Positions 120 through 22,749 of a stretch of 24,930 nt of DNA are shown one piece after another (position 1 is the first letter of the stretch; every line of letters starts with the position of its first letter). The DNA is from a virus: IMG/VR virus record IMGVR_UViG_3300032087_000790, positions 1 through 24,930 of that record; one strand, given 5' to 3'. The position numbers and the translations under genes are program-made. The notes under the pieces were generated by a model, which saw nothing but the letters and a program-made list of their open reading frames with translations, was not told where the DNA came from and made no database searches.

Positions 120-307
120 TATTGATAAAGTTTATGTCCGCTTTCTTGAATAAATTTTTCTCCCTCTTCTGTGTATAAATTAAAATAAGACCTAGTTATA
201 TTGCCTATACCTTGAGAATAGTAATCTTGTCCGCAGCATTTTCTACTATAACTACCATCTCTACATAAACAACCTCTTCTGCTATTAATTGGTATTGGTT
301 CTTTCAT
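119..307 (-). CDS. Small Cys-rich conserved phage protein (62 aa)
   Basis: This 62-residue protein has a cysteine-rich N-terminal half (RRGCLCRDGSYSRKCCGQ) containing CxC and CC pairs that could bind a metal, followed by QGIGNI and a short C-terminal part. I have an impression of similar small proteins in flavobacterial phage late regions, but I cannot name a function. It is joined to both neighbours by one-base TAATG overlaps: its ATG overlaps the protease stop, and its stop overlaps the next ATG. That supports the chosen start and shows it is a real member of the late operon. Confidence 0.7.
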   Translation of the reverse strand: MKEPIPINSRRGCLCRDGSYSRKCCGQDYYSQGIGNITRSYFNLYTEEGEKFIQESGHKLYQ

Positions 308-1002: not shown

Positions 1003-1003
1003 T

Positions 1004-2995
1004 TTATCCTAGTGTTGCTCCGTCTATTATATTACGTTCTAGTGCCTGTGCATTTGTAATTTCGTTAGAAACAACGTATGCTTTAACAGGTTGTGATTCT
1101 TGTTGCCCTATAACCTCTGCTAATTGATTCTCAGGTGATGCGCCTACTACATTAAAACTTGGTACTGCAGGTGTTGATGTGCTAGTTCTTGCACCTCTTA
1201 CTGTTCCTGCTGAACCTCCTGTATTACCTCTACCTCCTTTAACTGTTGATAAGATTTGTTTAGCTTGTCCTGCAGCGCCTAATACTGCAGCAATTTGTGA
1301 TGCATAAAATATAGGAAATGCTAATGCAGCAGCGGGTCCTGTGCCTTTTGCAGATTTTTGTGCTATGTCTAAACCTTGTACTACTCCTACACCTGTGCCT
1401 ATTGCTATCTCAGCAAGTGCAGCAGTTTTAGCTGCAGCAGTGCCTTTTTCAAACAATCCGCCTAAATTACCTATTGCTCTACCTAATGCAGATGCAAATT
1501 GAAGTTCTGCTTGTAATTTAGCATCTTTTATTTTTTGGTCGTCTTCTAAATCTTTCTTTCTAGCTTCTTCTGCTTTTTTAGCATCAGCTTTTCTTGCTTC
1601 GTCTTTGACATAATAATAGTAATCTATTACTTGTTGTTTAGCTTCTTCACTAGCGTTTAATGCTTCAAGTTCTGCTAATTTATTTGCTTCTTCTAATTCT
1701 ACTTTAGCTAGTTCAGTAGTTGCTTTGCGTTCAGCTTCTCTTTGTGTATAGTCATCTCTGATGTCTTGTATAGCATCTAACCTATCTTGTTCTCTTTTTT
1801 GTTCTTCCGCTATTCCCTTTTCTTCTTCTGCTTTTTGTTTTCTTAAAAGCATTTGTCTTTGATTCTGTACCTCTCTTTGTCTTTGTATTTTTCTAGCTTC
1901 TAGTTGATACAGTTTCTTTTCAAGTTCAGCTTGTTCATCTAAGTCCTCTTTTCTTGCGATAGAGGTCATATCATTTTCTTTTTTCTTAGCTTCAAACCTT
2001 AATCTTGCAGCTTCTATTTCTTTATTTGTAATATCATCTTCAATAGAAATAGCTTCTTCTAAAAATTTTATTCTTTCTTCTTGATTGTATTTTTCAGTAT
2101 TGTAAGCCTTAGTTCTAAGTTCATTAACTTTAGTATTAGCTTTTTGTCTTTCTACAATTAATTTTCTGTCTATTTTATCAGCTTTAGCTATTGCATCTGA
2201 TAATTCTGCTGCTGCTTGTACATCTTCTTTGATATCTTTACTAAAAGTGCTTATTTTTTCTCCTACAGTATCAAACGTATTAGACAATTGGTCACCTATT
2301 TCACTAAAACTACCTTTACCTGTTATAAAGTTTCCTATTGCTGCAAATGTACCTTTGATACCATTTCCTAGCTGACTTAATAACTCTACTGTATTAGCAA
2401 TAATAGCTTTACCTTGATTAAGTAGTTTAATGAATTTATTTTGTCCTTCTTCACTTGCTTGAAATGCTGCAACTAAAGAACCTAAAATAACTACAAACGC
2501 ACCTATACCACTACTAATAAAAGCTAGTTTTAGTACACTCATTCCTTTAGTAACTGCTTTAATGCCTCCTAAGAGACCTTGAAATCTACTAAATAAACCG
2601 CCTGTTGCTCTATCTAATGCACCTGTACCTCCTAATGTTTTTGTAAGACCTTTACTAGCATCATTATGAGCCTTAGCTTGTTCTCTTAGTTTTTTATTAT
2701 ACTCAGTATTTTGCTTGTTGAGTCTTTGTTTCTGTTTTAGATTTTGTTTTAGTGCAGTATTTTCTTGCTTTATAAATGCTTTAGTTTTTTGTATCCTCTC
2801 GTTAAGAGTTTTTCTTCTTGCTAAGTCTTTTCCAGATGCACCTGTAACCTGTGCTAACTCAGCTTCCATTTTGTTAAGTTCTCGAGTAGCATCAGCAACA
2901 TTATCTTCAAGCCTTACGATTTGCTCGTCTAAACTTTGTATTTCTTCTATTGCTGCTTTAGCATTTAATTTGATGTCAATTATTTTCTCAGCCAT
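1004..2995 (-). CDS. Tail tape measure protein (663 aa)
   Basis: This long alpha-helical protein is the only one in the tail block with tape-measure character. Residues of about 10-115 form a heptad-rich coiled coil. A hydrophobic segment lies at about 152-180 (LKLAFISSGIGAFVVILGSL). A second very charged coiled coil covers about 285-500, rich in E/K/R/A/Q. A Gly/Ala-rich hydrophobic stretch lies at about 515-590. In siphoviruses the tape measure sets tail length and helps DNA pass the host membrane, so 663 residues would suggest a fairly short tail. The start (MAEKIIDIKLNAKAAIEEIQ) overlaps the end of the 50-aa ORF upstream. The gene lies downstream of the tail chaperones, but four tail-tip-like genes intervene, so the order differs from the classical chaperone-tape measure-tip layout. 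Confidence 0.85.
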   Translation of the reverse strand: MAEKIIDIKLNAKAAIEEIQSLDEQIVRLEDNVADATRELNKMEAELAQVTGASGKDLARRKTLNERIQKTKAFIKQENTALKQNLKQKQRLNKQNTEYNKKLREQAKAHNDASKGLTKTLGGTGALDRATGGLFSRFQGLLGGIKAVTKGMSVLKLAFISSGIGAFVVILGSLVAAFQASEEGQNKFIKLLNQGKAIIANTVELLSQLGNGIKGTFAAIGNFITGKGSFSEIGDQLSNTFDTVGEKISTFSKDIKEDVQAAAELSDAIAKADKIDRKLIVERQKANTKVNELRTKAYNTEKYNQEERIKFLEEAISIEDDITNKEIEAARLRFEAKKKENDMTSIARKEDLDEQAELEKKLYQLEARKIQRQREVQNQRQMLLRKQKAEEEKGIAEEQKREQDRLDAIQDIRDDYTQREAERKATTELAKVELEEANKLAELEALNASEEAKQQVIDYYYYVKDEARKADAKKAEEARKKDLEDDQKIKDAKLQAELQFASALGRAIGNLGGLFEKGTAAAKTAALAEIAIGTGVGVVQGLDIAQKSAKGTGPAAALAFPIFYASQIAAVLGAAGQAKQILSTVKGGRGNTGGSAGTVRGARTSTSTPAVPSFNVVGASPENQLAEVIGQQESQPVKAYVVSNEITNAQALERNIIDGATLG

Positions 2996-3132
2996 AACTC
3001 TTTTTTTAACATTTCATATCCCTCTTTTATTGTTTCGGGAAATTTATATTTACCTAACGCTATTTCTACATAGTAACCTGTTAGTTTTTTTTCTTTTGCT
3101 ATTTTTAAAAGCTTTACTATCTCTTCTATCAT
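2980..3132 (-). CDS. Small protein between tail-tip and tape-measure genes (50 aa)
   Basis: An ATG at 3132 opens 50 codons (MIEEIVKLLKIAKEKKLTGY, ending in LKKELWLRK). The ORF fills the otherwise empty gap between the 1025-aa protein and the tape measure, and its end overlaps the tape-measure start by 16 bases in another frame. The composition (amphipathic, charged, one YYVEIALGKYKFPETIKEGY segment) looks like real protein rather than chance. Spacing to the previous stop is nine bases. No family is recognised. A role in tail assembly is only a guess from position. Confidence 0.6.
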   Translation of the reverse strand: MIEEIVKLLKIAKEKKLTGYYVEIALGKYKFPETIKEGYEMLKKELWLRK

Positions 3133-3141
3133 AACTTTATT

Positions 3142-6100
3142 TTAAGGGCAAGTAGTTACTCTTACAACTTCTCCATTTAATTTGTTTACTCTTATAGCCA
3201 TATATTGACTTCTTGTTGAATCTAATATTTTCCAATCATAGAAATTCACAAAATCATAATCACTTTTTGGTATTTGTGTTTGAAAACCTGCAAAAGTCAA
3301 TAAGTTATTACCATATGTAGTATTATAAGTTGTTGTTTCTCCTTTATATTCTAACCCTGTAACTCTTACAAAATCTCCTACTTGTACGTCTCTAGCACCG
3401 CCTGTATGTTCAAAGAACCAAACTTTATCTATATCTGAACTTATTTTGGTACCACAACTTACATCAGGAGGATATGACGGTGAATCATTTACAACATAAA
3501 CTGAAGAAGTAAAGTTTATTCCTTGAGGTAATGCAGCACCTATTGTTTTAGATTCTATTATAGGACCAACTACGTTTCCATTATCGTACAAATCACCTGT
3601 ATATGTTCTTGCGTAGAATCTATAGTAAATAGTTGTTGGATGTGTTAATCCTGTAATAGGAACAGTAACAGGGTCTGATGGTAAAGTATATCTATTTGGT
3701 TTTATATAAGGAACATTTATTAACTGTGTAGGCACGCCTGATAAAGATATATTAGTTACTGCACTAGCAGCATATAATTCATCATAAGTTGTAGGAGATA
3801 AATCAGATTTTGTACCACTAATAAAAAATCCAAACTCTTGAACCATCTCTGTATTCATTAATTTACCAAGTTTAGTAACTGCATATCTTAAATAAACTGT
3901 ATCCTCTGTATCTATGTTACTTAGCCTTAATTGTATCTCAGGTGGTTCTACTAATACAACCTCATCTTCATAAGCAGGTGTTGGTTCATTTGCAGGTATC
4001 TCACTAGGTACTTCAGTTGTTATGTTAGGCACATCAAATCCATCTGTAGCACTATCACCATCAGCAGTTAAATTACCTTCGTCTGCAGTTTTTAACGTAG
4101 TGTCTGCTAATACATTTTGAATAGCAACATTTAGTATAGTGTTGTATTTTATTTCTTCAAATATGTTATGAAGTTCTAATGTAGATTGATTAGTACTGAA
4201 ATCTGTTGTGATTTTATTTATCCTGTACATATCATCAAACACTATTATTCTATCAGCAAGGTTTAAATTGTGTAGAACTTCAATGGGTAAAAATGCTTTG
4301 AAAGTTGAGATTCTTTTTCTAGAATCCATCATATCCTTAACAAACTTTTTGTAGTAATTTTTAAATAATGTTTCTTTATTAGGCTCTCTGTGCCATTCAC
4401 TTATTTCAACTCCAAAGTGTAAGTTTTGTAGATTGTTAAATATAGTGCCTCCTAAATGATTAAAAGGTAAATATGTATTTGAAACTAAATCTGTTGAATC
4501 ATCTAAATCTCTTACTCTTATATTACCTGTAGTTTTTGCAGCATAAAATAGAATTGGTTTACCTAAATAAGAATTTTCACTATCATCTACCGCATATCCG
4601 TATTGAACTAAACTGTTTGTTTTTTCTTCGTTTCCGTCGCTATTAGTTGTTGTCTGTATTACACCATTATCTGTTACATAAACTCTTTCATACTTAAGGT
4701 GTTCAAATGGCGCTACAACTTCATAATTAGTACCATCAAACTTATCTCCATCTCTATAATTTAAGTTACCCCAACCTTTATTAAATAAGTTCTTGTGATT
4801 GTCCGTTAAAAAGGTGTCTAAGCCCTCGTAAGAGAACATAATTTCTTTAAATGGTAATATAGCATTAACTGTACTTTGTGTCTTGTCTAAGTGCTTTGTA
4901 ATATCCCACACCTTAGTACTAGATGCAAAGTAGTTGTCTAATGTTTTTACTTCAATTATTCCATTATCATTTCTAAATGCAGTTAGATTAAACATTTTGA
5001 ATAGACCTGTCAAGAAATCAATAATTCTCATATTTGGCATTAAGCTAGGTATATTTAATACTTTATCAGTAATATATTCAGCAGAACCGCTATAAGTTAT
5101 TTTCTTGTTACCACTAAAAATGTTTTTAGGTTTATTTCTAATTAATACATCAACTGTATAACTCGAAACTACATCCGTTTCAATAAAGAATGTATAAGTG
5201 CCATTTGGTATGACTATCTTAGTTTGCTCTGTTTCGCCTGTTAAGTTATCATATTTCTCAAATGCCTCACCATCTTTTTTTATAACTAAATTGTAAGCAG
5301 CAGTACCACTCGGTACAACTTTTACATTCATATCTCTTTCTGAGTCTGATTCCGAGAAACTATTTTCAAAACTACCTCCTTTGAATCCTTGAATGTCTTG
5401 TGAACTACCATCTGTTATTGTAAAGTTGCTTACAGGATACTGAGCATCTTGGTCTGAGAATAAAACTCCCTCTTTATTGTGGAGCCACATATATAAATCA
5501 CCAAACACTCCTATCTCATTATTAAAAAAGTCTCTTGAAAATTCTAACTCAGGATACTGTTGTTCTATTGCACTTATTATTGGAAATAATTTTATAGCAG
5601 GTTTAAGTTGTGATATTGGTAAACCAACTGTACCAACACTAACACTAGGATTCACATTTTTAATAGTGTCTGTATTTACAGATGTATTATCCCAAATGAT
5701 TCTATTATCAACTGTGATTAATGGAAATATGATAGCTTCATTAATTGTGTCATTGAAAAAATTTACATCTTTTCCATCTGACATATAAGTTTTAATGTTT
5801 GTATCATTGTATTGAAAATTGAAGTATTCTAAGTTTACTAGTTTACTTAATTTATCTTCACCTAATATATCTTTTAAAGAAACTGTATTACCATAAAAAG
5901 TTAGCTTATAAGACTCAGGTTCATTGTTCTTTAACCTTACTCCTTCTAATTTAATTTTACCTTGCTTAAAAGGCTTGTAATTAAGTAATATCGTAGCATC
6001 TCTTTTTTTTCTTGCATCAAATCCTACTATGTGAAAATTATAAAAATGCTTAAAGAGTTTGTTGTTTATTTTAGAAGCTGGTACATTAAAAGTTCTAGTA

Positions 6101-6219
6101 AAGTCTGTAAACACCTTAGAAATATCACGAATGTCTTGTATACTTTGAGTAAGAGTTACTGATTCGTCTTTAAACATTTCAACTTCTTGACCCTCTATGT
6201 AAAGTTGTAACTGTAGCAT
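3142..6219 (-). CDS. Large tail-tip or baseplate protein with Fn3-like domain (1025 aa)
   Basis: This is the largest protein in the window. Its N-terminal third (MLQLQLYIEGQEVEMFKDES, then SVTLTQSIQDIRDISKVFTD and FTRTFNVPASKINNKLFKHF) matches, as I recall it, a conserved structural protein of flavobacterial phages in the position of a tail-associated or baseplate hub protein. The region of roughly residues 740-900 contains a Pro/Glu/Thr-rich linker. After it comes a beta-rich module with EFGFFISGT, GLTHPTTIYYRFYARTYTG and YDNGNVVG, which resembles the Fn3-like adhesive modules common in Bacteroidota surface proteins. The last 120 residues are a separate domain containing two cysteines. Host recognition or tail-tip structure is inferred. 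The start overlaps the upstream gene's stop by one base. Confidence 0.75.
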   Translation of the reverse strand: MLQLQLYIEGQEVEMFKDESVTLTQSIQDIRDISKVFTDFTRTFNVPASKINNKLFKHFYNFHIVGFDARKKRDATILLNYKPFKQGKIKLEGVRLKNNEPESYKLTFYGNTVSLKDILGEDKLSKLVNLEYFNFQYNDTNIKTYMSDGKDVNFFNDTINEAIIFPLITVDNRIIWDNTSVNTDTIKNVNPSVSVGTVGLPISQLKPAIKLFPIISAIEQQYPELEFSRDFFNNEIGVFGDLYMWLHNKEGVLFSDQDAQYPVSNFTITDGSSQDIQGFKGGSFENSFSESDSERDMNVKVVPSGTAAYNLVIKKDGEAFEKYDNLTGETEQTKIVIPNGTYTFFIETDVVSSYTVDVLIRNKPKNIFSGNKKITYSGSAEYITDKVLNIPSLMPNMRIIDFLTGLFKMFNLTAFRNDNGIIEVKTLDNYFASSTKVWDITKHLDKTQSTVNAILPFKEIMFSYEGLDTFLTDNHKNLFNKGWGNLNYRDGDKFDGTNYEVVAPFEHLKYERVYVTDNGVIQTTTNSDGNEEKTNSLVQYGYAVDDSENSYLGKPILFYAAKTTGNIRVRDLDDSTDLVSNTYLPFNHLGGTIFNNLQNLHFGVEISEWHREPNKETLFKNYYKKFVKDMMDSRKRISTFKAFLPIEVLHNLNLADRIIVFDDMYRINKITTDFSTNQSTLELHNIFEEIKYNTILNVAIQNVLADTTLKTADEGNLTADGDSATDGFDVPNITTEVPSEIPANEPTPAYEDEVVLVEPPEIQLRLSNIDTEDTVYLRYAVTKLGKLMNTEMVQEFGFFISGTKSDLSPTTYDELYAASAVTNISLSGVPTQLINVPYIKPNRYTLPSDPVTVPITGLTHPTTIYYRFYARTYTGDLYDNGNVVGPIIESKTIGAALPQGINFTSSVYVVNDSPSYPPDVSCGTKISSDIDKVWFFEHTGGARDVQVGDFVRVTGLEYKGETTTYNTTYGNNLLTFAGFQTQIPKSDYDFVNFYDWKILDSTRSQYMAIRVNKLNGEVVRVTTCP

Positions 6220-7205
6220 TAGCGTACATTATTTATCTTATCAAATGCAAAATCAAATTCAATAGTGTAGTTTGTAAGTTTGTCGTTCAAAGATGTTTTA
6301 TAGTCTAATGATTTAGTAACAGGCATAATAGGCAAAGTTTTATTTTCAAATCTTATCCAAACATTTTCTGACAAGAACAGTTCTTCAATAGTTGAATTCA
6401 TATCCTCTTTTATAAAACCTGTATTTGTAACTAGTCTAGTGTTGCCATTTACATTATATCTCTCTCTTTGACCTTCGTAAGTTTGATAGGTTGCAGTTGA
6501 GTTAGCTATTGTGTTTCTTTTATATAAATCGCTAGTTACCTGTAAGTTCTCAGATGTTTTCTTAAATACATATAAATCTTGAAATGCACCATACTTATTT
6601 ACAAAAGTAATTTTATAACTTGTGTACTTAGGCTCACAAATATTAGTAACTGTTATTGTTTTTAATAAAGTAGAATCATCTGTATCATAAACCTGTATAG
6701 TGCTACTATCTGCAGGTATTGTTATATATTGAATCTTTTGATTTGTGTTTCCGTTATCTGTTATCTCTGTATCTGAACTATCAATAGTAACCTTTCCTAC
6801 TCCTTCTGCAAAGATTGGTAGCTTACCTGCTACTCCTTCTGGTAAGTAAATATTGTCAGCAGTCATTAATGCGTGTCTTTGTAACTCAGGATTAGTTCCA
6901 TCTTCAAAGTATCCGTATCCATCAAGAGCAATAAATTGATAAGTAAAAGGATTATTTGCAGTAAATGGTTGGTCTGCACTATCAAAAGAAGTAACAACTG
7001 CCTCTACCCATCTAGTATGGCTCACATAGTCATCATTAAAAGTAGGTGTTAAATAGTCTCTTACTAACTCTCCTATTTCTAAAGTTATTTTATCGTGTGT
7101 ATCTATTCTTGCTTTGTTTATTTGATAATTAGGTGTCGCAGGTTTATTAGTTTCTAAAACTCCCTCATAAATAAATAAATCTAATTCTATTCTTTTTAAT
7201 GCCAT
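6219..7205 (-). CDS. Putative tail structural protein (328 aa)
   Basis: This beta-rich protein of 328 residues lies between the Cys-containing repeat protein and the large tail-tip protein. It has no predicted membrane segment or enzyme motif. The N-terminus (ALKRIELDLFIYEGVLETNK) and C-terminus (LTNYTIEFDFAFDKINNVR) both read as strand-rich. The 'IEFDFAFDKINNVR' ending recalls tail-tip proteins that pack against the hub. Position directly upstream of the large tail-tip gene, sharing one base with it, fits a distal-tail or baseplate component. I do not recognise a specific family, so the function rests on context. Confidence 0.65.
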   Translation of the reverse strand: MALKRIELDLFIYEGVLETNKPATPNYQINKARIDTHDKITLEIGELVRDYLTPTFNDDYVSHTRWVEAVVTSFDSADQPFTANNPFTYQFIALDGYGYFEDGTNPELQRHALMTADNIYLPEGVAGKLPIFAEGVGKVTIDSSDTEITDNGNTNQKIQYITIPADSSTIQVYDTDDSTLLKTITVTNICEPKYTSYKITFVNKYGAFQDLYVFKKTSENLQVTSDLYKRNTIANSTATYQTYEGQRERYNVNGNTRLVTNTGFIKEDMNSTIEELFLSENVWIRFENKTLPIMPVTKSLDYKTSLNDKLTNYTIEFDFAFDKINNVR

Positions 7206-7207
7206 AA

Positions 7208-8695
7208 CTATACTAGTGTTGAACCTGTGCCACTACCTCCTGTATCACAAGTGTGTAATTTAACTTCTTGTACTATTCCTGAAGAACTTATTTTTACTGC
7301 ATAAAATTTGTCCGGTCCTAGTCCTACTGCTGAATAAACATACGATTGTAATATGCCCCAGTATCGCCCTTTACCATCAAATGCATTACCTCCAAAACAT
7401 ATTTGAGCACCTAGCTGACCTGTTATAGTTGAAGCAGTAGATAGAACAGGTTTTGATGTACCATAAACATCATCACAAAAATCACCTACATCGTCCTTGC
7501 TTACCGGTGTTAAAAAGAACTCATATAAACCACAATCACTTACATCTGCAGGTTGAATAATAGTAACATCACAAGCAGGGCTTAAATTGCTACCTGCATT
7601 AGTATAACCGCTAGGTATCTGTACTGTAAAGCTAACTACTCTACTTGTGTTAGTAGTTACAGGGTCAAAGCTTTTTGGTGACCAATCTACTATTGTTCCC
7701 TCTGCTGCACTACCTTTATATACACTACCGTTCTTAGCTATTGTTTGTCCTGTAAGACCTGCTATGTCACAACTAAAGTCAGGTGTGCTAACACCTGGTT
7801 GAGGATAAGTAACAGAACAATCAGGAGATAAAGTTGCACCCGCATTGCTATAACCTGTTGGTGCTTGTATTCTAAAATATAAAGTAACATTTTGCGCTGA
7901 ACTACCTGTATTAGCAGATACTGTTTCAGGACTTAATAATGTGCCTCCATCGCTTGTTGCTACACCTAAAATAGTACCAATAGTGCTTGGTCTTGTAATT
8001 GTTCCGTCTTGTGCTATACCTCCACCAGTTAAAGGTGAAGTATTACAAGTAAATGCTGCAGGTGCAGCTAATGTAACTGTAACTGATATAGCTTGTACTG
8101 CTTGACAAGTTGTTGGATAACTAGCATCTCTACCTATAGCATAGATTGTTGTAGAACCGCCTATTGCATTTGAAGAAATAACTAAATTGCTTCCTGCTAT
8201 TGCAGTTGTAACTAAGCTAGGATTAGGATTATTTACTGCGTAAGTTGTTTCACTTGTAAAATAACTTGATAAGTCAATAGTTGTTGAATCGCCTCCGTCA
8301 TCTAAACTAACTGCAGATATAGAACCTGAGGTTGTTGGTCCGCCTGTACAGGTAGAAGTTGCAGGTTGTATAGCAGTTAATACGCAGTCTTTATATACAT
8401 CATCAGTATTAGAAAATCCAGCAGGTATCCTAATTCGTGCAGTAACAGACCTTGATGTGTCGCTTGTTTCTGTTGCAAATTTATTATTGCTAAAGTCTGA
8501 ATCTGTACTAGTTAATGATTCAAAAAAACCATAGTCAGGTGTTGGGTCTGTAATTACTCCTTGGTTATCAACTGCAAAACCAGAGTCATCTAATCCTCTA
8601 GGAAATGCAGTAGCACAAGTAAATTCTCTTGCAGGTGTAGCAGGTGCAGATAAATTTAAATAAAAAGGACTGCGAACATTTATTTTAGTACTCAT
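7208..8695 (-). CDS. Repetitive beta-rich virion protein, possible tail decoration or adhesin (495 aa)
   Basis: The protein contains three diverged copies of a module of about 80-90 residues, at roughly 24-112, 214-300 and 306-383. Each begins with an aromatic-[ST]-Cys (EFTC, AFTC, DFSC). Each ends with a [IA]P-x-G-[FY]-[ST]-N element, then a Cys-containing strand and a QP (DCVLTAIQP, DCSVTYPQP, ACDVTIIQP). A bacterial Ig/cadherin-like insert (GDSTTIDLSSYF, about 120-205) separates copies 1 and 2. The C-terminal domain of about 388-495 (CGLYEFFLTPVSKDDVGDFC onwards) looks like a surface-protein module of Bacteroidota. Its start overlaps the upstream stop by four bases. It could be a tail-tube or decoration protein or an adhesin; which one is not decidable here. 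Confidence 0.7.
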   Translation of the reverse strand: MSTKINVRSPFYLNLSAPATPAREFTCATAFPRGLDDSGFAVDNQGVITDPTPDYGFFESLTSTDSDFSNNKFATETSDTSRSVTARIRIPAGFSNTDDVYKDCVLTAIQPATSTCTGGPTTSGSISAVSLDDGGDSTTIDLSSYFTSETTYAVNNPNPSLVTTAIAGSNLVISSNAIGGSTTIYAIGRDASYPTTCQAVQAISVTVTLAAPAAFTCNTSPLTGGGIAQDGTITRPSTIGTILGVATSDGGTLLSPETVSANTGSSAQNVTLYFRIQAPTGYSNAGATLSPDCSVTYPQPGVSTPDFSCDIAGLTGQTIAKNGSVYKGSAAEGTIVDWSPKSFDPVTTNTSRVVSFTVQIPSGYTNAGSNLSPACDVTIIQPADVSDCGLYEFFLTPVSKDDVGDFCDDVYGTSKPVLSTASTITGQLGAQICFGGNAFDGKGRYWGILQSYVYSAVGLGPDKFYAVKISSSGIVQEVKLHTCDTGGSGTGSTLV

Positions 8696-9240
8696 TTCTT
8701 AAATATATTTTCTATTGACACATCAAATTCTGTAAATATTTCTTTTTCTAATTGTGTAACGTACTTTTGAAAAGGCTTAGTAAAAAACATACTAGCTTTT
8801 ATACCTTTGCTATAAATACTTCTTGCTACAAGGAATTGTATAGATTTTTGAAACCCTGCAGTATCTATTCTACGAGCAGTAAACTTTCCTCTTTCTCTTG
8901 GTGCTAAACCTCTTCTAACTATCCACTTATCTAATTTACTAGGTGGTGGCATTTTGTCTGTATAAGCATATACTGTTTTTTTGTCAAATGGTTTCTGTGC
9001 TGCATCTTTTCCTGAATAAGGATTGATTGCACCTCTAACTCCTTTGTCTACATACTTGCCATACTTTGCACCTAAGAATCTTAAAATAAAGCCTTGCTCA
9101 TCTTCATCAAACTCGTGTGATAATGATTTACTTAAATTACTAGATACGTTCTTGTTATCTCTTTGTAAGTTAAGTTTAGCTTCTGCGATAACCTTTAAAG
9201 CAAATCGTTCTAATATTTCTTTGACTTTTTCTATTCGCAT
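8692..9240 (-). CDS. HK97 gp10-like tail completion or head-tail joining protein (182 aa)
   Basis: The size, position and composition fit the gp10-like neck or tail-completion proteins. The N-terminus is helical and basic (MRIEKVKEILERFALKVIAE). A middle segment contains GAKYGKYVDKGVRGAIN, matching the 'Y..yve.GT..i.arPF' region characteristic of this family, and the C-terminus is basic and amphipathic. Residues GLAPRERGKFTARRID are strongly basic. The gene sits between the tail-terminator-like gene (10-base overlap at 9231-9240) and the repeat protein (four-base overlap at 8692-8695). The family assignment is by pattern and order, not alignment. Confidence 0.6.
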   Translation of the reverse strand: MRIEKVKEILERFALKVIAEAKLNLQRDNKNVSSNLSKSLSHEFDEDEQGFILRFLGAKYGKYVDKGVRGAINPYSGKDAAQKPFDKKTVYAYTDKMPPPSKLDKWIVRRGLAPRERGKFTARRIDTAGFQKSIQFLVARSIYSKGIKASMFFTKPFQKYVTQLEKEIFTEFDVSIENIFKK

Positions 9241-9704
9241 ATTGAAATGTCATTATGAATAATTATGTCAAATGTCATTGCCCATCCTGCTACTTGGTGT
9301 TCAAATCTATCTGTAAAAGGTTCACAGGTTGGATTACCAGATAGTTGGTATTGACTAGAAAACAAATCACCTCTTTTAAGAACTTGTGCTAATCTATTTT
9401 GTACTGCTAGTTGTGTATTTAATATGTCCTGTTCGTTATTGTTACCTACGAACACGTCTACGACCTCATCTTTACTTACATTAACAATATCCATAGAAAG
9501 AATAGATATGTTAAAATTAGCAGTATTTTGCAAGAAAGAAACATTGTTTACTATGATATGCGATAAAGGAAACATTGTCTGCTTACTTAAATCGATGTCA
9601 GTTATATTACCAAAGGTAACAGTATTTACATTTACATCATCTAGTAGTTCTGTTTTTAGTGTCTCTGTTATTTGGTAAAATGCTCTAGTTCCTTGTTGGC
9701 TCAT
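9231..9704 (-). CDS. Tail terminator-like protein (157 aa)
   Basis: This small alpha/beta protein (MSQQGTRAFYQITETLKTEL, then DIDLSKQTMFPLSHIIVNNV) has a layout seen in tail-terminator and minor-tail proteins: an N-terminal helix, a strand-rich core and a C-terminal strand pair (HQVAGWAMTFDIIIHNDISI). Its ATG at 9704 forms an ATGA overlap with the stop of the -1 frame of the tail chaperone (stop at 9701-9703), not with the zero-frame stop at 9784. That indicates ribosomes do finish in the -1 frame just upstream. The function is inferred from gene order and size. Confidence 0.6.
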   Translation of the reverse strand: MSQQGTRAFYQITETLKTELLDDVNVNTVTFGNITDIDLSKQTMFPLSHIIVNNVSFLQNTANFNISILSMDIVNVSKDEVVDVFVGNNNEQDILNTQLAVQNRLAQVLKRGDLFSSQYQLSGNPTCEPFTDRFEHQVAGWAMTFDIIIHNDISICE

Positions 9705-9967
9705 TTTATTTTATTTAATTTTTTTATTTGGTTAGCCTCTAGTTCAGCTTTCTCTTTCATAAAAGATAACATTGTAAAACATTTTAAGGCACTGAGTTTT
9801 GTGATATTTTCAAATCGCTCAATATCTCCGTTAGCGAGTGCAAAGACTGATTGATACCAACCCCATTTAGTTCCAAAGCTTTCAATTGCTCCGAAGTTAG
9901 ATTCTCTCCTATCTCCTCCTTCAAACAGTTCAGGGTAAGATTCAGTAGTTCTTTTTTTAAATTCCAA
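9701..9967 (-). CDS. -1 frame extension of the tail assembly chaperone (gpGT-like tail)
   Basis: This reading frame lies in the -1 frame relative to the upstream 223-aa chaperone and overlaps its last 184 bases. It has no ATG before the overlap, only a TTG at 9967. Its sequence (YPELFEGGDRRESNFGAIES, then FGTKWGWYQSVFALANGDIE and a helical, charged tail) looks fully protein-like. As I recall, its FGxKWGWYxS motif is typical of the T part of tail chaperones in Bacteroidota phages. The expected product is a fusion of about 251 residues: chaperone residues 1-167 plus 84 residues from this frame. The stop overlaps the next gene's ATG as ATGA. Tail chaperones of the lambda G/GT type recruit tail-tube subunits to the tape measure. 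Independent initiation at the TTG is the alternative. Confidence 0.75.
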   Translation of the reverse strand: MEFKKRTTESYPELFEGGDRRESNFGAIESFGTKWGWYQSVFALANGDIERFENITKLSALKCFTMLSFMKEKAELEANQIKKLNKIK

Positions 9968-10455
9968 AAAAAAACCATAGCACCTATTGTTATACTCAAG
10001 GGCATTTTAAGCATCTCTACTGCATACTTACTGCCATCGTAAGGTTCTATAACATATCGCTCTCCTTTTCTGTATGTAACAGGTCTATAAAGAACAGACA
10101 TAGCTTTGTGCATATTATACCAATCTCCTAAATATGTATCTAAGTCTATGTACTCTCCTAATGTAATATCGTCTAGCTTAGGTATAAAACCATATTCAAT
10201 ATCATCCATTTTAAATACAGTAACAACATCAGGTACTTGATTTAATACATCATAGATATGATTTGTAATATCTACTAGGTCAGTATATTTTATTTGTAGT
10301 GTCAACTCTAAATCTACCTTACAGAAAATTTCTATTGTTTTCTGCATTAAGAAAGTAGTTTCTCTGTTACTGTCTATATTAATTTTGTCAAACTCTATAT
10401 ACTGTTCTAGAGTAATGTCATCTAAACTGTCAGGTATTTGTAGTTTAAGTTTCAT
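9784..10455 (-). CDS. Tail assembly chaperone, zero-frame product (gpG-like, 223 aa)
   Basis: This is the first gene after the terminator at 10486-10514, so it heads the tail block. The protein (MKLKLQIPDSLDDITLEQYI) repeats a 'LDDITLxEYIxxD' motif at about residues 10-20 and 94-106 and is rich in acidic helical segments, a look typical of chaperone G proteins in flavobacterial phages. The last 56 residues (from about 168) are encoded in a stretch that is also read in the -1 frame as the GT extension. The zero-frame C-terminus (NGVGINQSLHSLTEILSDLK) also looks constrained, so both products are probably made. The slippery stretch is at 9951-9961. Confidence 0.75.
   Translation of the reverse strand: MKLKLQIPDSLDDITLEQYIEFDKINIDSNRETTFLMQKTIEIFCKVDLELTLQIKYTDLVDITNHIYDVLNQVPDVVTVFKMDDIEYGFIPKLDDITLGEYIDLDTYLGDWYNMHKAMSVLYRPVTYRKGERYVIEPYDGSKYAVEMLKMPLSITIGAMVFFWNLKKELLNLTLNCLKEEIGENLTSEQLKALELNGVGINQSLHSLTEILSDLKISQNSVP
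9951..9961 (-). promoter_or_regulatory. Programmed -1 ribosomal frameshift site (slippery sequence)
   Basis: On the minus strand the sequence TTTAAAAAAAG is in phase for -1 slippage in the 223-aa chaperone frame. It reads T TTA AAA (9961-9955), and overlapping it A AAA AAA (9958-9952), both X XXY YYZ heptamers. Slippage here moves ribosomes into the open -1 frame that ends at 9701. A downstream stimulatory structure was not identified by eye. Confidence 0.7.
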
Positions 10456-10485
10456 AGTTATATAACGTATTAGAAAAAAAGTTTA

Positions 10486-10514
10486 TAAAAAAATAAAGCA
10501 GCCTTTCGACTGCT
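10486..10514 (-). terminator. Rho-independent terminator (minus strand)
   Basis: Read on the minus strand this is AGCAGTC-GAAA-GGCTGCT, a 7-bp stem (one G-T pair) closed by a GAAA tetraloop and followed by TTTATTTTTTT. It lies in the gap between the 126-aa gene and the tail chaperone, so it should separate the terminase/small-gene transcript from the tail transcript. A promoter for the tail operon would then be expected at about 10456-10485, though I see no clear consensus there. Confidence 0.85.
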
Positions 10515-10554
10515 CTAAATTAATTAAAAAAAACAAATGAAATTAAACAAACAT

Positions 10555-10935
10555 CTAGCCTTTTGGATGGTCGGCTAATAACCAATATTCCTTTTCACAT
10601 CTTTCAGAACAAAAGTCTTGCATATACGTTTCATCTATTCTAGCTGTACAATTATCACAACAGTAGTTTTCGTAGTAATAATCTATAATATGCTCTGCTA
10701 TTTCTCGCCAGTTAACATATCTGATAAATGCTTGTGCATAGCTTGTAACTAATTCGTTGTCACATTCACATACAAGTATGTCATCTACATAGGCTTGTAA
10801 GTGCTGACCTAGTTCGTATGCGTGACGTTCTCCACGTGTATCTTCTATGTAGTCTGCCCAGTAGTCAACGTCTACGTCATCAAAGATTTCTAAGTTTATA
10901 CGCCACGTAGCGTAGTTAGTCCATCCGTTATGCAT
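10555..10935 (-). CDS. Conserved phage protein with N-terminal WTNYATWR motif and C-terminal zinc ribbon (126 aa)
   Basis: The N-terminal motif GWTNYATWRINLEIFDD is shared with a widespread family of small phage proteins of unknown function. Residues of about 13-85 are acidic and helical (DDVDVDYWADYIEDTRGERH). The C-terminus carries a treble-clef-like or zinc-ribbon pattern, CCDNC at about 92-96 followed by CSERC at about 109-113. The start overlaps the upstream 96-aa gene by eight bases, and a terminator follows the stop. GC content looks slightly higher than in neighbours. No function is assigned; the zinc site suggests nucleic-acid or protein binding. Confidence 0.75.
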   Translation of the reverse strand: MHNGWTNYATWRINLEIFDDVDVDYWADYIEDTRGERHAYELGQHLQAYVDDILVCECDNELVTSYAQAFIRYVNWREIAEHIIDYYYENYCCDNCTARIDETYMQDFCSERCEKEYWLLADHPKG

Positions 10936-11218
10936 TTCTCCATTCTTTTGAATTACGAAACAAATCTACTTTCTCTTTGTGTGTATTTAATAACTTACCA
11001 CACAATTCTATATACTCGGTATAATACCTTGTACCTGCCTTAATCTTTTTGACTTTGCCTAATGCATTTGTAATCATAATATTGCTATCTGCTATATAAT
11101 ATTGTCTACTAGCATAACCAAATTTGATAGGTTTGATGTCTGTGAATTTGCTACCAATGTACTTACCATCTATGTAATATTCTACCGAATAGCCTAAGTG
11201 TTCAAATATTGCGTTCAT
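10928..11218 (-). CDS. Hypothetical protein (96 aa)
   Basis: This small protein (MNAIFEHLGYSVEYYIDGKY) has a beta-rich N-terminal half and a basic helical C-terminus. It has no recognisable enzyme motif, signal peptide or membrane segment. It overlaps the 126-aa zinc-ribbon gene by eight bases, so the two are probably made together. I do not recognise the family. Confidence 0.7.
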   Translation of the reverse strand: MNAIFEHLGYSVEYYIDGKYIGSKFTDIKPIKFGYASRQYYIADSNIMITNALGKVKKIKAGTRYYTEYIELCGKLLNTHKEKVDLFRNSKEWRNA

Positions 11219-11245
11219 ATTATTTTATTTGTTTCTTAAATTTAA

Positions 11246-11380
11246 TTAAAAATATTGAATAAACAAAAATATTTCTAAGAATAAATACATACTACCATAA
11301 GCGAGTATGTTAAATAAAATACCAAGTAAGATGTTTTTTACTGTAAATACTTCTTTTAAAATTTCAAAATCTTTTTTCAT
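11246..11380 (-). CDS. Small hydrophobic membrane protein (44 aa)
   Basis: An ATG at 11380 opens a 44-codon ORF. It begins with a charged helix (MKKDFEILKEVFTVKN) followed by an almost uninterrupted hydrophobic stretch of about 27 residues (ILLGILFNILAYGSMYLFLE onwards). This is consistent with a single-pass inner-membrane protein, or two short membrane helices. It fills the gap between the terminase and the 96-aa gene. AT-rich DNA can produce hydrophobic ORFs by chance, so confidence is moderate. A lysis-accessory role is possible but unsupported. Confidence 0.5.
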   Translation of the reverse strand: MKKDFEILKEVFTVKNILLGILFNILAYGSMYLFLEIFLFIQYF

Positions 11381-11454
11381 AATTTATTTATTAATTAAAC
11401 ATATCTAAATGTAATAACTTCTTTTCAATTATCAAAATTTTTTAATAACTTTTT

Positions 11455-12621
11455 TTAGTTGATAGCGTACTTACCAAAGTTTGGTTTAGATAAAATACTG
11501 TAAGTGCCATACCTTAATGCATCAATCAAGTGATTATGTTTATCTATTGGTATGTTTAGCATTTTACCATTTTTGTCCTCTTGCCATTTATAGTTTCTAA
11601 ACTCTTGTATAGCATTGTTAGAATCAGTTGTAAGGTGTATTTTATATCGCTTCAATAAGTCTATACCTGCATTGATACTATCTCTACCTTTTATACTAGG
11701 TCTAATATTCCAACCCATACGTCTCAATTCATCTATAAGCCTTTGTTCTGCACTATCAGCATATATCATTTCTCTGTTGATGTTTAACTCTCTCAAGAAC
11801 TTATTTATGTCTGTAGTAGTCATCATTGTTCTATATAAATATTCTTTAGCATATAAGTTGTAATCATCTACCCATATGCCTATTAGAGTTGTAGGGTCAT
11901 TTGTATATCCAAAGTCCATTCCATAGGATAAGAACTTAGCTGACTCAGGTATTTGTTGTACTTCTAAGTATCTAAATATTGTAGATTTTGTTACACCTTT
12001 GATACCTAATCCATACACTTGCCAATATTGTTCGTCTGTATCTTTTAGTCTAAGTATCTCTTGTTTAATTGTATCTCCTAGAAATGGGTTGTCTAAGAAA
12101 TTAGTTCTGTAAAAATCACAATCTTCTCTAGGTATCACTTTATCATATATCCAATGGTACTCATCAGAGGGGTTGTAATCTAATATGATTCTTTCTTTTG
12201 TTCTAAATAATAACTGTTGCCAATCTTCCCAGAATAATTCATTTGCCTCATTAATAAATAGTAAATCTCTTTTCCTACCTCTTACCTTTTGCGGTTGGTC
12301 TAATGATATAAACTCTATTAGGTTACCATAAAGAATATATTCGCTTGAAGATTTATTGTGTGCCTCTTCGCTATACATTTGATACTGCTGAAGTATTTGT
12401 ATAAAGTCTCGCATCACAGATGCTCTTAAAGAGGGAAAGGTTTTTCTACAGATTGTTATTGTCTTGCCTCTGTTTTCAGGGCAGTAATAAAATATAATCC
12501 AAATAAGTATATTATAAGTTTTGCCTGACCGAGTACCGCCTTGCTCAACTATAATCTTTTTGTCTGACTCAATTAAATGCCTACAGACAACATTTGTATC
12601 AATCGTGGTTTGTTTGACCAC
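11455..12621 (-). CDS. terL: Terminase large subunit (388 aa)
   Basis: This is the DNA-packaging motor ATPase and nuclease. The N-terminal ATPase shows Walker A GGTRSGKT (residues 28-35) and Walker B LLFINEAN with E125 as the likely catalytic glutamate. The C-terminal RNase H-like nuclease shows GMDFGYTNDPTT (D236), IYADSAEQRLI (D289) and HLIDALRYG (D367), the usual three acidic positions. The length is slightly short but complete for the Terminase_3/6 type. The start overlaps the terminase small subunit by 23 bases. TerL partners with TerS to recognise and cut concatemeric DNA and then docks on the portal, which is not in the window. Confidence 0.95.
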   Translation of the reverse strand: MVKQTTIDTNVVCRHLIESDKKIIVEQGGTRSGKTYNILIWIIFYYCPENRGKTITICRKTFPSLRASVMRDFIQILQQYQMYSEEAHNKSSSEYILYGNLIEFISLDQPQKVRGRKRDLLFINEANELFWEDWQQLLFRTKERIILDYNPSDEYHWIYDKVIPREDCDFYRTNFLDNPFLGDTIKQEILRLKDTDEQYWQVYGLGIKGVTKSTIFRYLEVQQIPESAKFLSYGMDFGYTNDPTTLIGIWVDDYNLYAKEYLYRTMMTTTDINKFLRELNINREMIYADSAEQRLIDELRRMGWNIRPSIKGRDSINAGIDLLKRYKIHLTTDSNNAIQEFRNYKWQEDKNGKMLNIPIDKHNHLIDALRYGTYSILSKPNFGKYAIN

Positions 12622-12955: not shown

Positions 12956-13783
12956 TTACTTTTTGATTGAATTAAAAAACTCTAATCGTGCATCCTCATC
13001 CTTTTTAAACGCACCTATTAGTTTTGTAGTTGTTGTCCAAGTGTCGTGTTTCTTTACACCTCGCATCTCCATACACATATGTTTCGCAGAAAGAGATACT
13101 GCTACTCCTTTAGGTTGTAATTTCTCTTCTAAGTATTCTGCTACTTGTGTAGTTATTCTCTCTTGGTTTTGTAAACGATTAGCGAACAAGTCTAGCGTAC
13201 GAGCTAATTTACTCAGTCCTACAATCTTATCTTTTGGTATGTAAGCTATATGACCATAACCAAAGAAAGGTGCTATGTGATGTTCGCATAATGAGTAAAA
13301 AGGTATATTAGTTTGTACTATCATTTCATCATATCCCTCGCTACTAAAAGTTGTAAAGTTCCATTCTTGTGGTGTTAGAAATTGTTTGAAGAATTTTACA
13401 TATCGTTTCGGAGTATCTTGCAGACCCTCTCTATGAACATCCTCTCCAAAGTATTGCAACAGTCTAGTAACATTATCTTCTACGTTCCCATTATGATTCT
13501 CCCAAGGAAATACTATCCATTCATTTTTGTACTCTTCTCTTTTATCTATTAAAGCAGCAAAAGGTTTATCGTGTTTAGCATACTGTAATAATGTTTGACC
13601 GCTATCTATTAAGTCATCTACTATTACATCTGCTTGGTCTATAGTATCAACTGCGTTGCCTAACATACCTGCAATGATTTGTCCGCCCCTTGGCACTCCG
13701 TAGAATTTTGTGTCTGGCTCAAATTTAGATTTTAAATATTCTAATCTATTATATATTTCCTGCCAACCTATGAATGTTTTCAT
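12956..13783 (-). CDS. folE: Phosphoribosyltransferase-like domain fused to GTP cyclohydrolase I (275 aa)
   Basis: Residues of about 1-95 form a compact type I PRTase-like domain, with the pyrophosphate-loop motif YGVPRGGQ (28-35), the PRPP-binding motif VIVDDLIDSGQTL (53-65) and a closing WIVFPWE (89-95). Residues of about 97-275 are GTP cyclohydrolase I. They include NVTRLLQYFGED and REGLQDTPKR, zinc ligands C166 and H169 in SLCEHH, and C237 in HMCMEMRGV. GCYH-I turns GTP into dihydroneopterin triphosphate, the first step toward 7-deazaguanines. The ATG makes an ATGA overlap with queE. The PRTase part is short (about 20 residues between its two motifs, usually more), so it may be catalytically reduced. 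Its role is not known; linking nucleotide or base salvage to GTP use is speculation. Confidence 0.93.
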   Translation of the reverse strand: MKTFIGWQEIYNRLEYLKSKFEPDTKFYGVPRGGQIIAGMLGNAVDTIDQADVIVDDLIDSGQTLLQYAKHDKPFAALIDKREEYKNEWIVFPWENHNGNVEDNVTRLLQYFGEDVHREGLQDTPKRYVKFFKQFLTPQEWNFTTFSSEGYDEMIVQTNIPFYSLCEHHIAPFFGYGHIAYIPKDKIVGLSKLARTLDLFANRLQNQERITTQVAEYLEEKLQPKGVAVSLSAKHMCMEMRGVKKHDTWTTTTKLIGAFKKDEDARLEFFNSIKK

Positions 13784-14508
13784 ACACCTGTCTTTTTATT
13801 CCAAATGTCTATATGTAGTCTAGTAGTAAAGTTAAGATAATTTTTCTTTGCTAATTCTATTACTGTTTCTTTGTTGTTGTTTAGTAGTTCTTGATTCTCA
13901 CCTGCAGGCATTAAATAAACTTTTTCTTTGTCTATTAGATAAAAGTAATCTTTTTTTATTTCATCCCAATCTTTTTCTGAACTTACAACAAACTTGAATA
14001 TAGCATTGTGCCTATTAAGTTCTTTTATTACCTCAGGTTTATAGGTTGTGCTTTTATCGTTTCCACTACTTTCTAATTTAGGACTACAATTCCAAAGGTT
14101 GATATTATTTAATAAATACTCACTAGGTAATATTGTTCCGTTTGTTTCTACTTCATAGAAAGCATCAACACCTAAGTCGAATTTAATATATTTCATAAAC
14201 TCTTCTAGTTGTGTTTGTTGCATCATAGGCTCACCGCCTGTCAAAATAATATGCGCTCCGTTCTTTATTGCTTCTATACAATCTTCAGGTAAGACATCTT
14301 TGGGTTCTTTACTCTGTGCTTTCATCCACACCTCAACAGTATCACATCTCCATTCTGCGTTGTTATGTAACTCTCCATCAAATTGCGTACCCATTCCTCC
14401 ACACATCAAGTTGCAACCACCTAGCCTTACAAATACGCTTGGCACTCCAACTGTTTTACCTTCTCCTTGTACAGAATAAAAAACCTCACTAATTGCTATC
14501 TTCTTCAT
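13780..14508 (-). CDS. queE: 7-carboxy-7-deazaguanine synthase QueE (radical SAM, 242 aa)
   Basis: QueE converts 6-carboxytetrahydropterin to 7-carboxy-7-deazaguanine (CDG). The N-terminus SEVFYSVQGEGKTVGVPSVF is the typical QueE opening. The [4Fe-4S]-binding cysteines are C32, C36 and C55 (GCNLMC, then WRCDT). This gives CxxxC-x18-C, with an insert between the second and third cysteines where E. coli QueE has CxxxCxxC. LTGGEP (89-94) is the SAM-binding GGE motif, and FYEVETNGT follows. Length is normal. It overlaps queD by 20 bases and the FolE fusion by four. The insert with the GGMGTQFDGELHNNAEW loop is a known-looking variant rather than damage. Confidence 0.93.
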   Translation of the reverse strand: MKKIAISEVFYSVQGEGKTVGVPSVFVRLGGCNLMCGGMGTQFDGELHNNAEWRCDTVEVWMKAQSKEPKDVLPEDCIEAIKNGAHIILTGGEPMMQQTQLEEFMKYIKFDLGVDAFYEVETNGTILPSEYLLNNINLWNCSPKLESSGNDKSTTYKPEVIKELNRHNAIFKFVVSSEKDWDEIKKDYFYLIDKEKVYLMPAGENQELLNNNKETVIELAKKNYLNFTTRLHIDIWNKKTGV

Positions 14509-14896
14509 ATATAATTGTGCTTGATTTTGTTTCTGCTAATTCTATTCTTGTTATTGGTAACTTACCCTCGTTCTTTATTCTATTGAAAATCCATATAGCC
14601 ATATTCTCGGCACTTGTTTCAAAAGGTACAGTTATAAATTCTTCATCTGCTAATCTAAACACATCAACTAACTTATCTTCTTCAAATAAAATAAACTTAT
14701 GGTCATAGGTTTTTATAATAGGCTCTACTACAGTATCAATGTCAGAGAATAACATAGTAACTCCATCTTTCATTGTTTCAAATTTAAACTCACAAAAGAC
14801 ATCATAAGTGTGTCCGTGTGGTCTGCCACATTTCTCTCCTGCATTTTTATTTCTATGCCCTGCGTAAAAATGATACTTTTTTCTAATCTTAATCAT
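14489..14896 (-). CDS. queD: 6-carboxytetrahydropterin synthase QueD (135 aa)
   Basis: QueD converts dihydroneopterin triphosphate, the FolE product, to 6-carboxytetrahydropterin, the QueE substrate. All key residues of this T-fold enzyme are visible: zinc ligands H14 (FYAGHR), H27 and H29 (PHGHTYDV), catalytic C23 (EKCGRPHGH), the D65-H66 pair in YDHKFIL, and E122 in ELAETKSS. The SAENMAIWIF helix is also typical. Length is normal for the family. The start overlaps the 141-aa gene by eight bases and the end overlaps queE by 20, so the pathway genes are translationally coupled in the order queD, queE, folE. Confidence 0.95.
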   Translation of the reverse strand: MIKIRKKYHFYAGHRNKNAGEKCGRPHGHTYDVFCEFKFETMKDGVTMLFSDIDTVVEPIIKTYDHKFILFEEDKLVDVFRLADEEFITVPFETSAENMAIWIFNRIKNEGKLPITRIELAETKSSTIIYEEDSN

Positions 14897-16458: not shown

Positions 16459-16802
16459 ATTATTGCTATTGCTCCGTTTTCGTTATCTTCTAATACTTCA
16501 ACAGAATATGCATCAAATTTTTCTAAAATTATATTTGCAATCTGTTCGCAGCTAAGGATACCAAAGTTGCATAATTGTAACTCTATATCCCAGAATCTTT
16601 GATGTAGATAGTTTTTAATTTGTTTCTTAAATCTTATTATTTCAATATCTCTATCATCGTGGTTTACTTTTTTATATACTTTAATGTAGAAGTTGTGCCT
16701 ATGTAAACTCAATAAATATTCTACTTCATTTATATCACAATCTTTCCATTGATGAATACCTTCAACTATTAAATTAACTACTATTAAGTTTTTGCTTTCC
16801 AT
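16455..16802 (-). CDS. QueD-like T-fold protein, possible 7-deazaguanine tailoring enzyme (115 aa)
   Basis: By eye this small protein aligns with QueD. VEGIHQW gives H17, like the first zinc histidine. LHRHNFYIKVY gives H34 and H36, like the HGH pair. SCEQIANIILEKF matches SAENMAIWIF of the true QueD. YSVEVLEDNENGAI matches IELAETKSSTII. There is no obvious equivalent of the conserved Asp-His pair, and the cysteine nearest the HxH motif (C22) is displaced. It therefore probably keeps the zinc site and fold but not normal QueD chemistry. Published work on phage 7-deazaguanines predicted a CDG decarboxylase (DpdL); whether this protein belongs to that family I cannot check. It overlaps dpdA by 19 bases and the glycosyltransferase by four. 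Confidence 0.7.
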   Translation of the reverse strand: MESKNLIVVNLIVEGIHQWKDCDINEVEYLLSLHRHNFYIKVYKKVNHDDRDIEIIRFKKQIKNYLHQRFWDIELQLCNFGILSCEQIANIILEKFDAYSVEVLEDNENGAIAII

Positions 16803-17665
16803 TTTTTGTAATCTAAGTTTTCTAAGTTTTCATTGACATATAAAATGTCTTTTAATTGTTTCTTATTTGCAACTGCTAAAAACAATTTTAAGTTCATAGC
16901 TTTGCTATATTTTTGATACTTACTGAATGCTAATATACTTAAAATATTTGCGATGCATTTTCCTCCTCTGTGATTCTCTAAATCAGAAAAGTCTTTAGGC
17001 GTTACTTTTATTTCTTCTAATGCCTTTTTAAGTCCTAATGGCATCTTAACTTTCTTTGTTAAAATATCATAATACCTTACATTATAAATCTTATCTTCAA
17101 AGTAACTTAAATAACCATATACCTGACTATTTATCCAACTGCTACTATCTACAGAATGCAAAGGCAAACGATATATATCATTAAACTGTACAAATCCTAA
17201 TGCGTGTATTTTTGCTTTGCTTTTTTTATAAACGTCTTGATACCTTTTTAACATCCAATCTCCTCTATTCATAACTCCACCTGCTACGCATAGATGTTCT
17301 TGATTTTTAATTGTGTCTGCCATATAACTCCAATCTGTATCATACTCAGTAAAAACAAACATAGGATTGAAGCCGCGTTGTATCATTATTTCGTAATTCT
17401 CTTTAGTAGCTTTTTCGTTTTTAATGACATCTAGCATTACATACTTTTCTACCTTGTGTCCAAATTGTTCTAAGTACACACAGTAGTTATCTAAATTAAG
17501 TTTAGTTTTCTTTTTAGAATTAAATATTGTAAAAGCACCGCTATCAATCATTAGGTTAGCGACACCATTAACACTCTGTTCTATTGCTAGATTATTAAAG
17601 TCTTTGCTAGTACCTGTGTAGGCAAAGCTAACTAATATATTTAAGTAAGTATCATTTGATATCAC
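16784..17665 (-). CDS. dpdA: DpdA-like DNA guanine transglycosylase (293 aa)
   Basis: DpdA enzymes exchange guanine in DNA for a 7-deazaguanine base and are related to tRNA-guanine transglycosylases (TGT). Visible TGT-like elements are LMIDSGAFT (D41, equivalent to the DSGGFQ aspartate), VAGGV (128-131, a substrate-binding Gly pair) and LPLHSVDSSSW (D173, the likely nucleophile). A TIM-barrel-like alternation of strands and helices links them (KYVMLDVI, PMFVFTEYD, KIHALGF). The zinc-binding Cys cluster of tRNA TGT is missing, as is normal for phage DpdA. It overlaps the ParB-like gene by 14 bases and the QueD-like gene by 19. Its place in an island with folE, queD and queE strongly supports DNA 7-deazaguanine modification. 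The DpdA subfamily cannot be assigned by eye. Confidence 0.88.
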   Translation of the reverse strand: MISNDTYLNILVSFAYTGTSKDFNNLAIEQSVNGVANLMIDSGAFTIFNSKKKTKLNLDNYCVYLEQFGHKVEKYVMLDVIKNEKATKENYEIMIQRGFNPMFVFTEYDTDWSYMADTIKNQEHLCVAGGVMNRGDWMLKRYQDVYKKSKAKIHALGFVQFNDIYRLPLHSVDSSSWINSQVYGYLSYFEDKIYNVRYYDILTKKVKMPLGLKKALEEIKVTPKDFSDLENHRGGKCIANILSILAFSKYQKYSKAMNLKLFLAVANKKQLKDILYVNENLENLDYKKWKAKT

Positions 17666-22717: not shown

Positions 22718-22749
22718 AAAAAAAAACCCCTCAGTATAGAACCAAGGGG
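22718..22749 (-). terminator. Rho-independent terminator (minus strand)
   Basis: Read on the minus strand the sequence is CCCCT, a 13-base loop, AGGGG, then nine T residues. The GC-rich 5-bp stem and T-run are a standard terminator. It lies between the SSB-like gene and the helicase gene and should limit read-through into the replication operon, which then needs its own promoter nearby or partial read-through. Confidence 0.85.

Follow-up and report, generated by a model that had tools for sequence, protein, structure and literature searches.

A two-frame gene pair beside the terminase gene in a family of phages carries a conserved run of at least nine Ts, a candidate site of polymerase slippage

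The window analysed here is a stretch of 24,930 nucleotides of viral DNA (IMG/VR record IMGVR_UViG_3300032087_000790). Its minus strand carries two overlapping reading frames, called G and T below, downstream of the gene for the terminase large subunit (terL). The features are listed here; T9 standing alone means a run of nine Ts, and positions in the run are numbered such that T3-T9 is the in-phase heptamer T_TTT_TTT.

9784..10455, minus strand: G, the zero-frame ORF, 223 amino acids (phrog_32199; ATG at 10455, stop at 9784)
9966..9974, minus strand: T9 run, the proposed slip site, positions T2-T10 (codons GTT TTT TTT TGG); a run of nine or more is present here in 420 of 420 contexts, and P12024L and P12024S have T9 at the same position
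9701..9973, minus strand: T, the -1-frame extension, 90 amino acids counted from FF, with the KWGWY motif within (stop included in the coordinates)
9784..9966, minus strand: zero-frame tail of G past the T9 run, overlapping T (dual coding)
9957..9959, minus strand: +1-frame stop TAA, two codons past the T9 run, as read from the sequence
9951..9961, minus strand: TTTAAAAAAAG, the slippery site proposed earlier; not conserved (TTTAAA heptamer in 18 of 420 contexts)
9231..9704, minus strand: next gene, 157 amino acids (phrog_30964, family function not named), with an ATGA overlap with T
11455..12621, minus strand: terminase large subunit, the upstream neighbour of G (PF17288 and PF04466)
1004..2995, minus strand: tape-measure-like protein (phrog_339, tail length tape measure, E 1.2e-6), encoded a long way downstream of the G/T pair

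From about 10006, 449 nt past the start of G, the -1 frame is free of stops until the TGA at 9701. This stop (9703-9701) overlaps the ATG (9704-9702) of the 157 amino acid gene. From the coordinates, G and T overlap by 184 bases (9967-9784), and a GT fusion is predicted to have 251 residues (161 + 90). The layout agrees with the first-pass annotation of this DNA, which had described a zero frame of 223 amino acids overlapping a -1 frame open to 9701, an FGxKWGWYxS motif in the -1 frame (here FGTKWGWYQS), an ATGA overlap with the next gene and a fusion of about 251 residues. It had also stated that the ORF open from 9967 has no ATG in the overlap; this is correct, but a TTG is present at 9967. 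Six other ORFs separate T from the tape-measure-like ORF in the window, and G/T does not lie beside the tape measure gene. The tape-measure-like gene comes just before a head-protease-like gene (307-1002, PF14550). Over 307-12621, the tail-type genes lie between the terminase and the head-protease-like gene, a gene order unlike that of lambda.

Searches with G or T as queries, eight through viral contigs and one through genome contigs, gave at least 565 loci together with P12024L and the window, and further relatives exist beyond these; some of the loci are one contig retrieved twice, and three (L001, L305 and L306) were excluded as copies. The motif [WY][GA]W[YFH] placed the junction in 556 of 565 loci (505 when W was required first), always with the motif in the -1 frame. 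These gave 420 distinct contexts, which are separated by exact identity only and include many near relatives. Among the nine loci without a placed junction, seven have nine or ten Ts near the contig end and two stop before the site. Ahead of the T-run, the zero frame has 110 or more open codons in 418 of 420 contexts and the T frame nowhere exceeds 51, so G and T share a frame in 0 of 420; T is always in the -1 frame. The 114 representatives on a tree, which drew on 418 of the 420 contexts, are widely diverged.

The neighbourhood is shared as well. In the 419 other contexts, a protein similar to terL is found in 344 and one similar to the 157 amino acid gene in 351, while relatives of the 182, 328 and 1025 amino acid genes are found in 323, 156 and 117, all in the same order and strand; the counts for the farther neighbours (the later genes) are limited by short flanks. 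We confirm that a two-frame G/T unit beside terL and tail-module genes is common to many phage contigs and to the Nonlabens (Persicivirga) phages P12024L and P12024S, which are the only relatives found among phage records. The host of P12024L/S is a Persicivirga strain, and both relatives from genome contigs lie in contigs titled Bacteroidetes; the host of the window's phage therefore likely belongs to Bacteroidota.

Directly upstream of the position of TTTAAAAAAAG stands a run of Ts, nine long in 342 of 420 contexts, ten long in 76 and twelve long in two. A run shorter than nine was found at the junction in none of the 420 distinct contexts. We took the longest run (at least five Ts) before the motif, a choice that favours long runs, yet short ones would show where they stood alone. 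The run occupies T2-T10 in 258 contexts (the window's included), T3-T11 in 82 (the L284 and L084 clades), T2-T11 in 51, T3-T12 in 20 (the L235 clade), T1-T10 in five, T2-T13 in two and T1-T9 in two (L519 and L521, where T10 is a C and the run stretches back to T1). All three nine-base windows that hold T3-T9 are found, namely T1-T9, T2-T10 and T3-T11, i.e., three codon phases. A T lost at one end of the run is accompanied by a longer run at the other end: T2 and T11 are never both non-T (0 of 420), with a T at T2 only in 263 contexts, at T11 only in 102 and at both in 55. On the tree as drawn, the length/register label changes 14 times among the 114 representatives. In L485, the sister of L084 (100/99), a run of ten Ts links two registers without falling below nine; the run of L271 is ten Ts, plus an extra codon.

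When the flank columns were shuffled independently (2,000 times), at least nine Ts were kept in a mean of 104.6 and a maximum of 110 of the 114 representatives, against 114 observed, and in a mean of 354.5 and a maximum of 368 of the 420 contexts, against 420 observed; the shuffle disregards relatedness and only three clades are without T2, so these numbers are support and not proof. In the clades without T2, codon 161 encodes Gly, Ala, Asn, Thr or Ser, so a requirement for Val, Leu or Ile does not account for T2. A stop closes the +1 frame no more than 10 codons past the run in 114 of 114 representatives (median 2), which may arise from the encoded residues alone. The site common to the family is a T-run held at nine or more, with a sliding register.

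The first-pass annotation had called the 184-base overlap dual coding, and the comparison bears this out. Differences in the overlap peak at position 3 of the -1 frame (0.199, 0.149 and 0.293 for positions 1, 2 and 3; 3,778 pairs; 157 of 166 contexts, with those that have no T stop, or L084 in the wrong phase, left out), so the -1 frame leads there; in G before the T-run, the corresponding values are 0.228, 0.140 and 0.469. The zero frame, too, stays free of stops for longer than chance allows: among synonymous reshuffles of the -1 frame, the fraction that remains open as long is no more than 0.038 for 36 of 39 representatives (the exceptions are L002, 0.25; L073, 0.30; and L087, 0.08), with the caveat that one position weighs heavily, since many reshuffles already break at the first zero-frame codon, and that the combined p-value disregards relatedness. 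Between the run and the motif, the T frame has no start codon in 184 of 420 contexts, a GTG or TTG in 159 and an ATG in 77. The residues of T are conserved immediately from the run (FFxxF).

Are long runs tolerated elsewhere in these phages? We counted them in the other ORFs of these loci, 419 once redundancy was removed (105,817 codons), with the expectation obtained by codon reshuffling. T9 is depleted in the other genes, with one seen against 5.7 expected, and no run of ten or more Ts was seen against 0.9 expected. For A9, five were seen against 21.3 expected, and for ten or more As, none against 16.2. The ratio of observed to expected falls from 0.82 at T5 through 0.79 at T6, 0.60 at T7 and 0.48 at T8 to 0.18 at T9; since the depletion is gradual from T5, with no step at nine, a length of nine is not singled out. 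Baranov and colleagues have used the depletion of runs as a sign of slippage (PMC1088944). In the window, T9 runs are also found on the minus strand at 22718-22726 and 24572-24580, both between listed ORFs, and are perhaps terminator tracts. An A9 run at 20359-20367 (minus strand) lies within the ORF 20296-20712, where it encodes Lys-Lys-Lys; slippage is possible there too.

The reading that we favour, with somewhat better than even confidence and from sequence comparison, is that G and T form a G/GT pair of the tail-assembly-chaperone-like type and that slippage of RNA polymerase at T9 is the main source of their fusion. We infer both that the fusion is made at all and that the polymerase, over the ribosome, is the agent. 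Most transcripts would give G (223 amino acids), and a minority would give GT (251 amino acids), in which T replaces the 60-residue zero-frame tail after the residues FF. The frame would switch at T9 (9974-9966) and not at TTTAAAAAAAG: the polymerase would slip on the run, adding one U or dropping two, and normal translation of the resulting mRNA would produce GT. Transcripts short of one U would run into the +1-frame stop almost immediately. The nine-U run would match the length of the RNA:DNA hybrid of the polymerase, which is 9-10 bp, and slippage in vivo is highly efficient at nine As or Ts (PMC5009743). The published criterion for functional slippage combines conserved overlapping ORFs with a conserved run of nine (PMC1088944). 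The E. coli polymerase makes insertions at about 5% at T7 and about 10% at T8, undetectable below T7 (PMC6260861), so nine is no physical limit in E. coli; the polymerase of Bacteroidota may differ. The conserved feature is the length of a homopolymer, which favours the polymerase. It is tempting to extend this reading to a large phage group, probably of Bacteroidota, that would make its chaperone fusion by programmed polymerase slippage at T9-T12, with the minimum held at the hybrid length while the codon register drifts; we regard this wider proposal as evenly balanced between right and wrong.

The chief competitor of the polymerase, possible though less likely, is the ribosome. In programmed -1 frameshifting at U_UUU_UUU within T9, both Phe-tRNAs would slip back one base; the GT protein would be identical, so sequence alone cannot separate the two. 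Every run of nine holds an in-phase ribosomal heptamer whatever its phase, and T3-T9 are all T in 420 of 420 contexts, partly by definition, since the run defines T3. Moreover, U_UUU_UUU and U_UUU_UUC are among the heptamers that give more than 0.10% frameshifting in E. coli without stimulators (PMC4066793), and tail chaperones of other phages use this kind of frameshifting (PMC5009743). A heptamer needs only seven Ts, however, whereas at least nine are kept while the register slides, and T_TTT_TTC or another heptamer is found as a substitute in 0 of 420 contexts. Nor does a conserved downstream RNA structure give a signal in 39 representatives (mean z of +0.3 over 4-54 nt and of -0.4 over 4-84 nt, in a scan that covers structures other than pseudoknots and Shine-Dalgarno-like stimulators). 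In the same 39 representatives, no upstream hairpin of the slippage-stimulating kind stands beside the site.

Two further accounts are far less probable. The first-pass annotation had placed a programmed -1 frameshift at TTTAAAAAAAG and had named conservation of its heptamer in relatives as a check. The stretch is in phase at 9961-9951, and TTTAAAA and AAAAAAA are slippery under the usual rule, but an in-phase TTTAAA within 14 codons past the run occurs in only 18 of 420 contexts, all 18 of which also have the T-run. Against a T-run of at least nine in 420 of 420, this conservation rules out TTTAAAAAAAG as the common slip site; it could add slippage locally but is not the shared mechanism, and as the slip site in the window's own phage it is exceedingly improbable. 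An independent T gene, begun at a start codon of its own and not fused to G, is only slightly less improbable. The TTG at 9967, the P12024L/S records (which annotate T as its own ORF from an internal ATG) and the 236 of 420 contexts with some start-like codon ahead of the motif speak for a separate T; it is countered by the 184 of 420 contexts without ATG, GTG or TTG, by the conservation of T residues from the run onward and by a T-run of nine that a separate gene would not need. The preference of the first-pass annotation for a frameshift over a separate start of T stands on this lack of a conserved start, though not at the site it named. It was right about the unit and wrong about the site, and the slipping machine is probably a different one.

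The identification of G/T as a tail-assembly chaperone is plausible because of its architecture and position. The genome arrangement has a short ORF with a frame-shifted extension replacing its tail, of which a fusion is predicted. A division of labour like that of lambda would have G coating the tape-measure protein and T recruiting tail-tube subunits. The tail-chaperone assignment made in the first-pass annotation holds in so far as a G/T unit stands in a tail-module position and its T is in the -1 frame throughout; it lacks a sequence match to a named family, for neither Pfam, NCBIfam nor the named PHROGs gave a chaperone family match for G/T, and profiles showed no similarity to lambda G and T (single lambda sequences were used). 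The family phrog_38404 matches 15 of 27 relatives of T and leaves the window's T unmatched; neither phrog_32199 nor phrog_38404 has a named function. The structure model of G (pLDDT 80.3) has 36 matches among predicted structures of viral proteins (E <= 0.001), none of them with a named function, and the chaperone-named BFVD matches, from Caudovirales sp. ctCpR1 and Paenibacillus phage Wanderer, are not significant (both E 0.36). The T model is weak (pLDDT 69.5), and among PDB sequences and folds there is no convincing match for G/T. Three single proteins in BFVD, A0A516L611, A0A6J5N0W0 and A0A6J5MY57, match the G model (E 1.3e-9, 5.3e-9 and 9.2e-4) and also the T model (E 0.06-0.36); judging by these models, they are possible in-frame relatives of G/T. 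Alternatively, the fusion unit may have another role, e.g., as a head-tail joining or morphogenesis factor, which would be compatible with any of the mechanisms above. The position beside terL and away from the tape-measure gene, unlike lambda, together with the missing match to lambda G/T and the PHROG families without named function, points in that direction, but the size, the architecture and a slip near the end of G agree with G/GT, and we consider another role unlikely.

In phage lambda, the short ORF G is extended in the -1 frame by T, and the fusion is the rarer product (PMC5009743). The pair in the window resembles lambda gpG/gpGT in this architecture but has no sequence similarity to it, and lies between terL and the 157 amino acid gene, whereas the lambda pair sits between the major tail protein and the tape measure. 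The slip site of lambda is a G/A heptamer, in contrast to the T-run common to the window's family. P12024L and P12024S share the same G family (approximately 30% identity) with terL adjacent and T9 at the same position (in P12024S, read by eye), and T is in the -1 frame in P12024L. They differ in that the records annotate two hypothetical genes without a frameshift; in P12024L (L002:12001-12695), these are P12024L_40 (G) and P12024L_41 (T, from an internal ATG), and the zero-frame tail past the run is just 76 nt. The T9 suggests that P12024L_40 and P12024L_41 are one unit, as the two hypothetical genes of each P12024 record may be. The closest likeness in mechanism is to slippage in Thermus dnaX and IS elements, which likewise have a run of nine, conserved overlapping ORFs and depletion of nine-runs elsewhere (PMC5009743, PMC1088944). 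The reported conserved cases are dnaX, IS elements and others, and not a phage tail gene (PMC1088944). In the open-access literature we found no report of a tail chaperone made by transcriptional slippage.

Tail-chaperone fusions are usually regarded as ribosomal frameshifts. If the polymerase is used here, the same type of fusion would be made at another step, in transcription and not in translation; the ratio in tail morphogenesis would then be set at transcription, and programs that look for ribosomal heptamers would assign the wrong mechanism. The family would also supply, ready-made, a range of run lengths and registers on which slippage by the polymerase can be measured.

Other genes in the window include one for a sigma-70/ECF-like protein (21066-21608; TIGR02937, E 3.2e-8, below the curated cut-off). 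The genes at 12956-14896 fit synthesis of 7-deazaguanine (queuosine-type), possibly for DNA modification: a GTP cyclohydrolase I (PF01227, E 5.9e-64), a 6-pyruvoyl tetrahydropterin synthase/QueD-type protein (PF01242, E 1.3e-24) and a weak radical-SAM match, below cut-off, which we take to be QueE-like. Near them, at 16784-17665, a protein of 293 amino acids without a Pfam or NCBIfam match may resemble DpdA-type enzymes.
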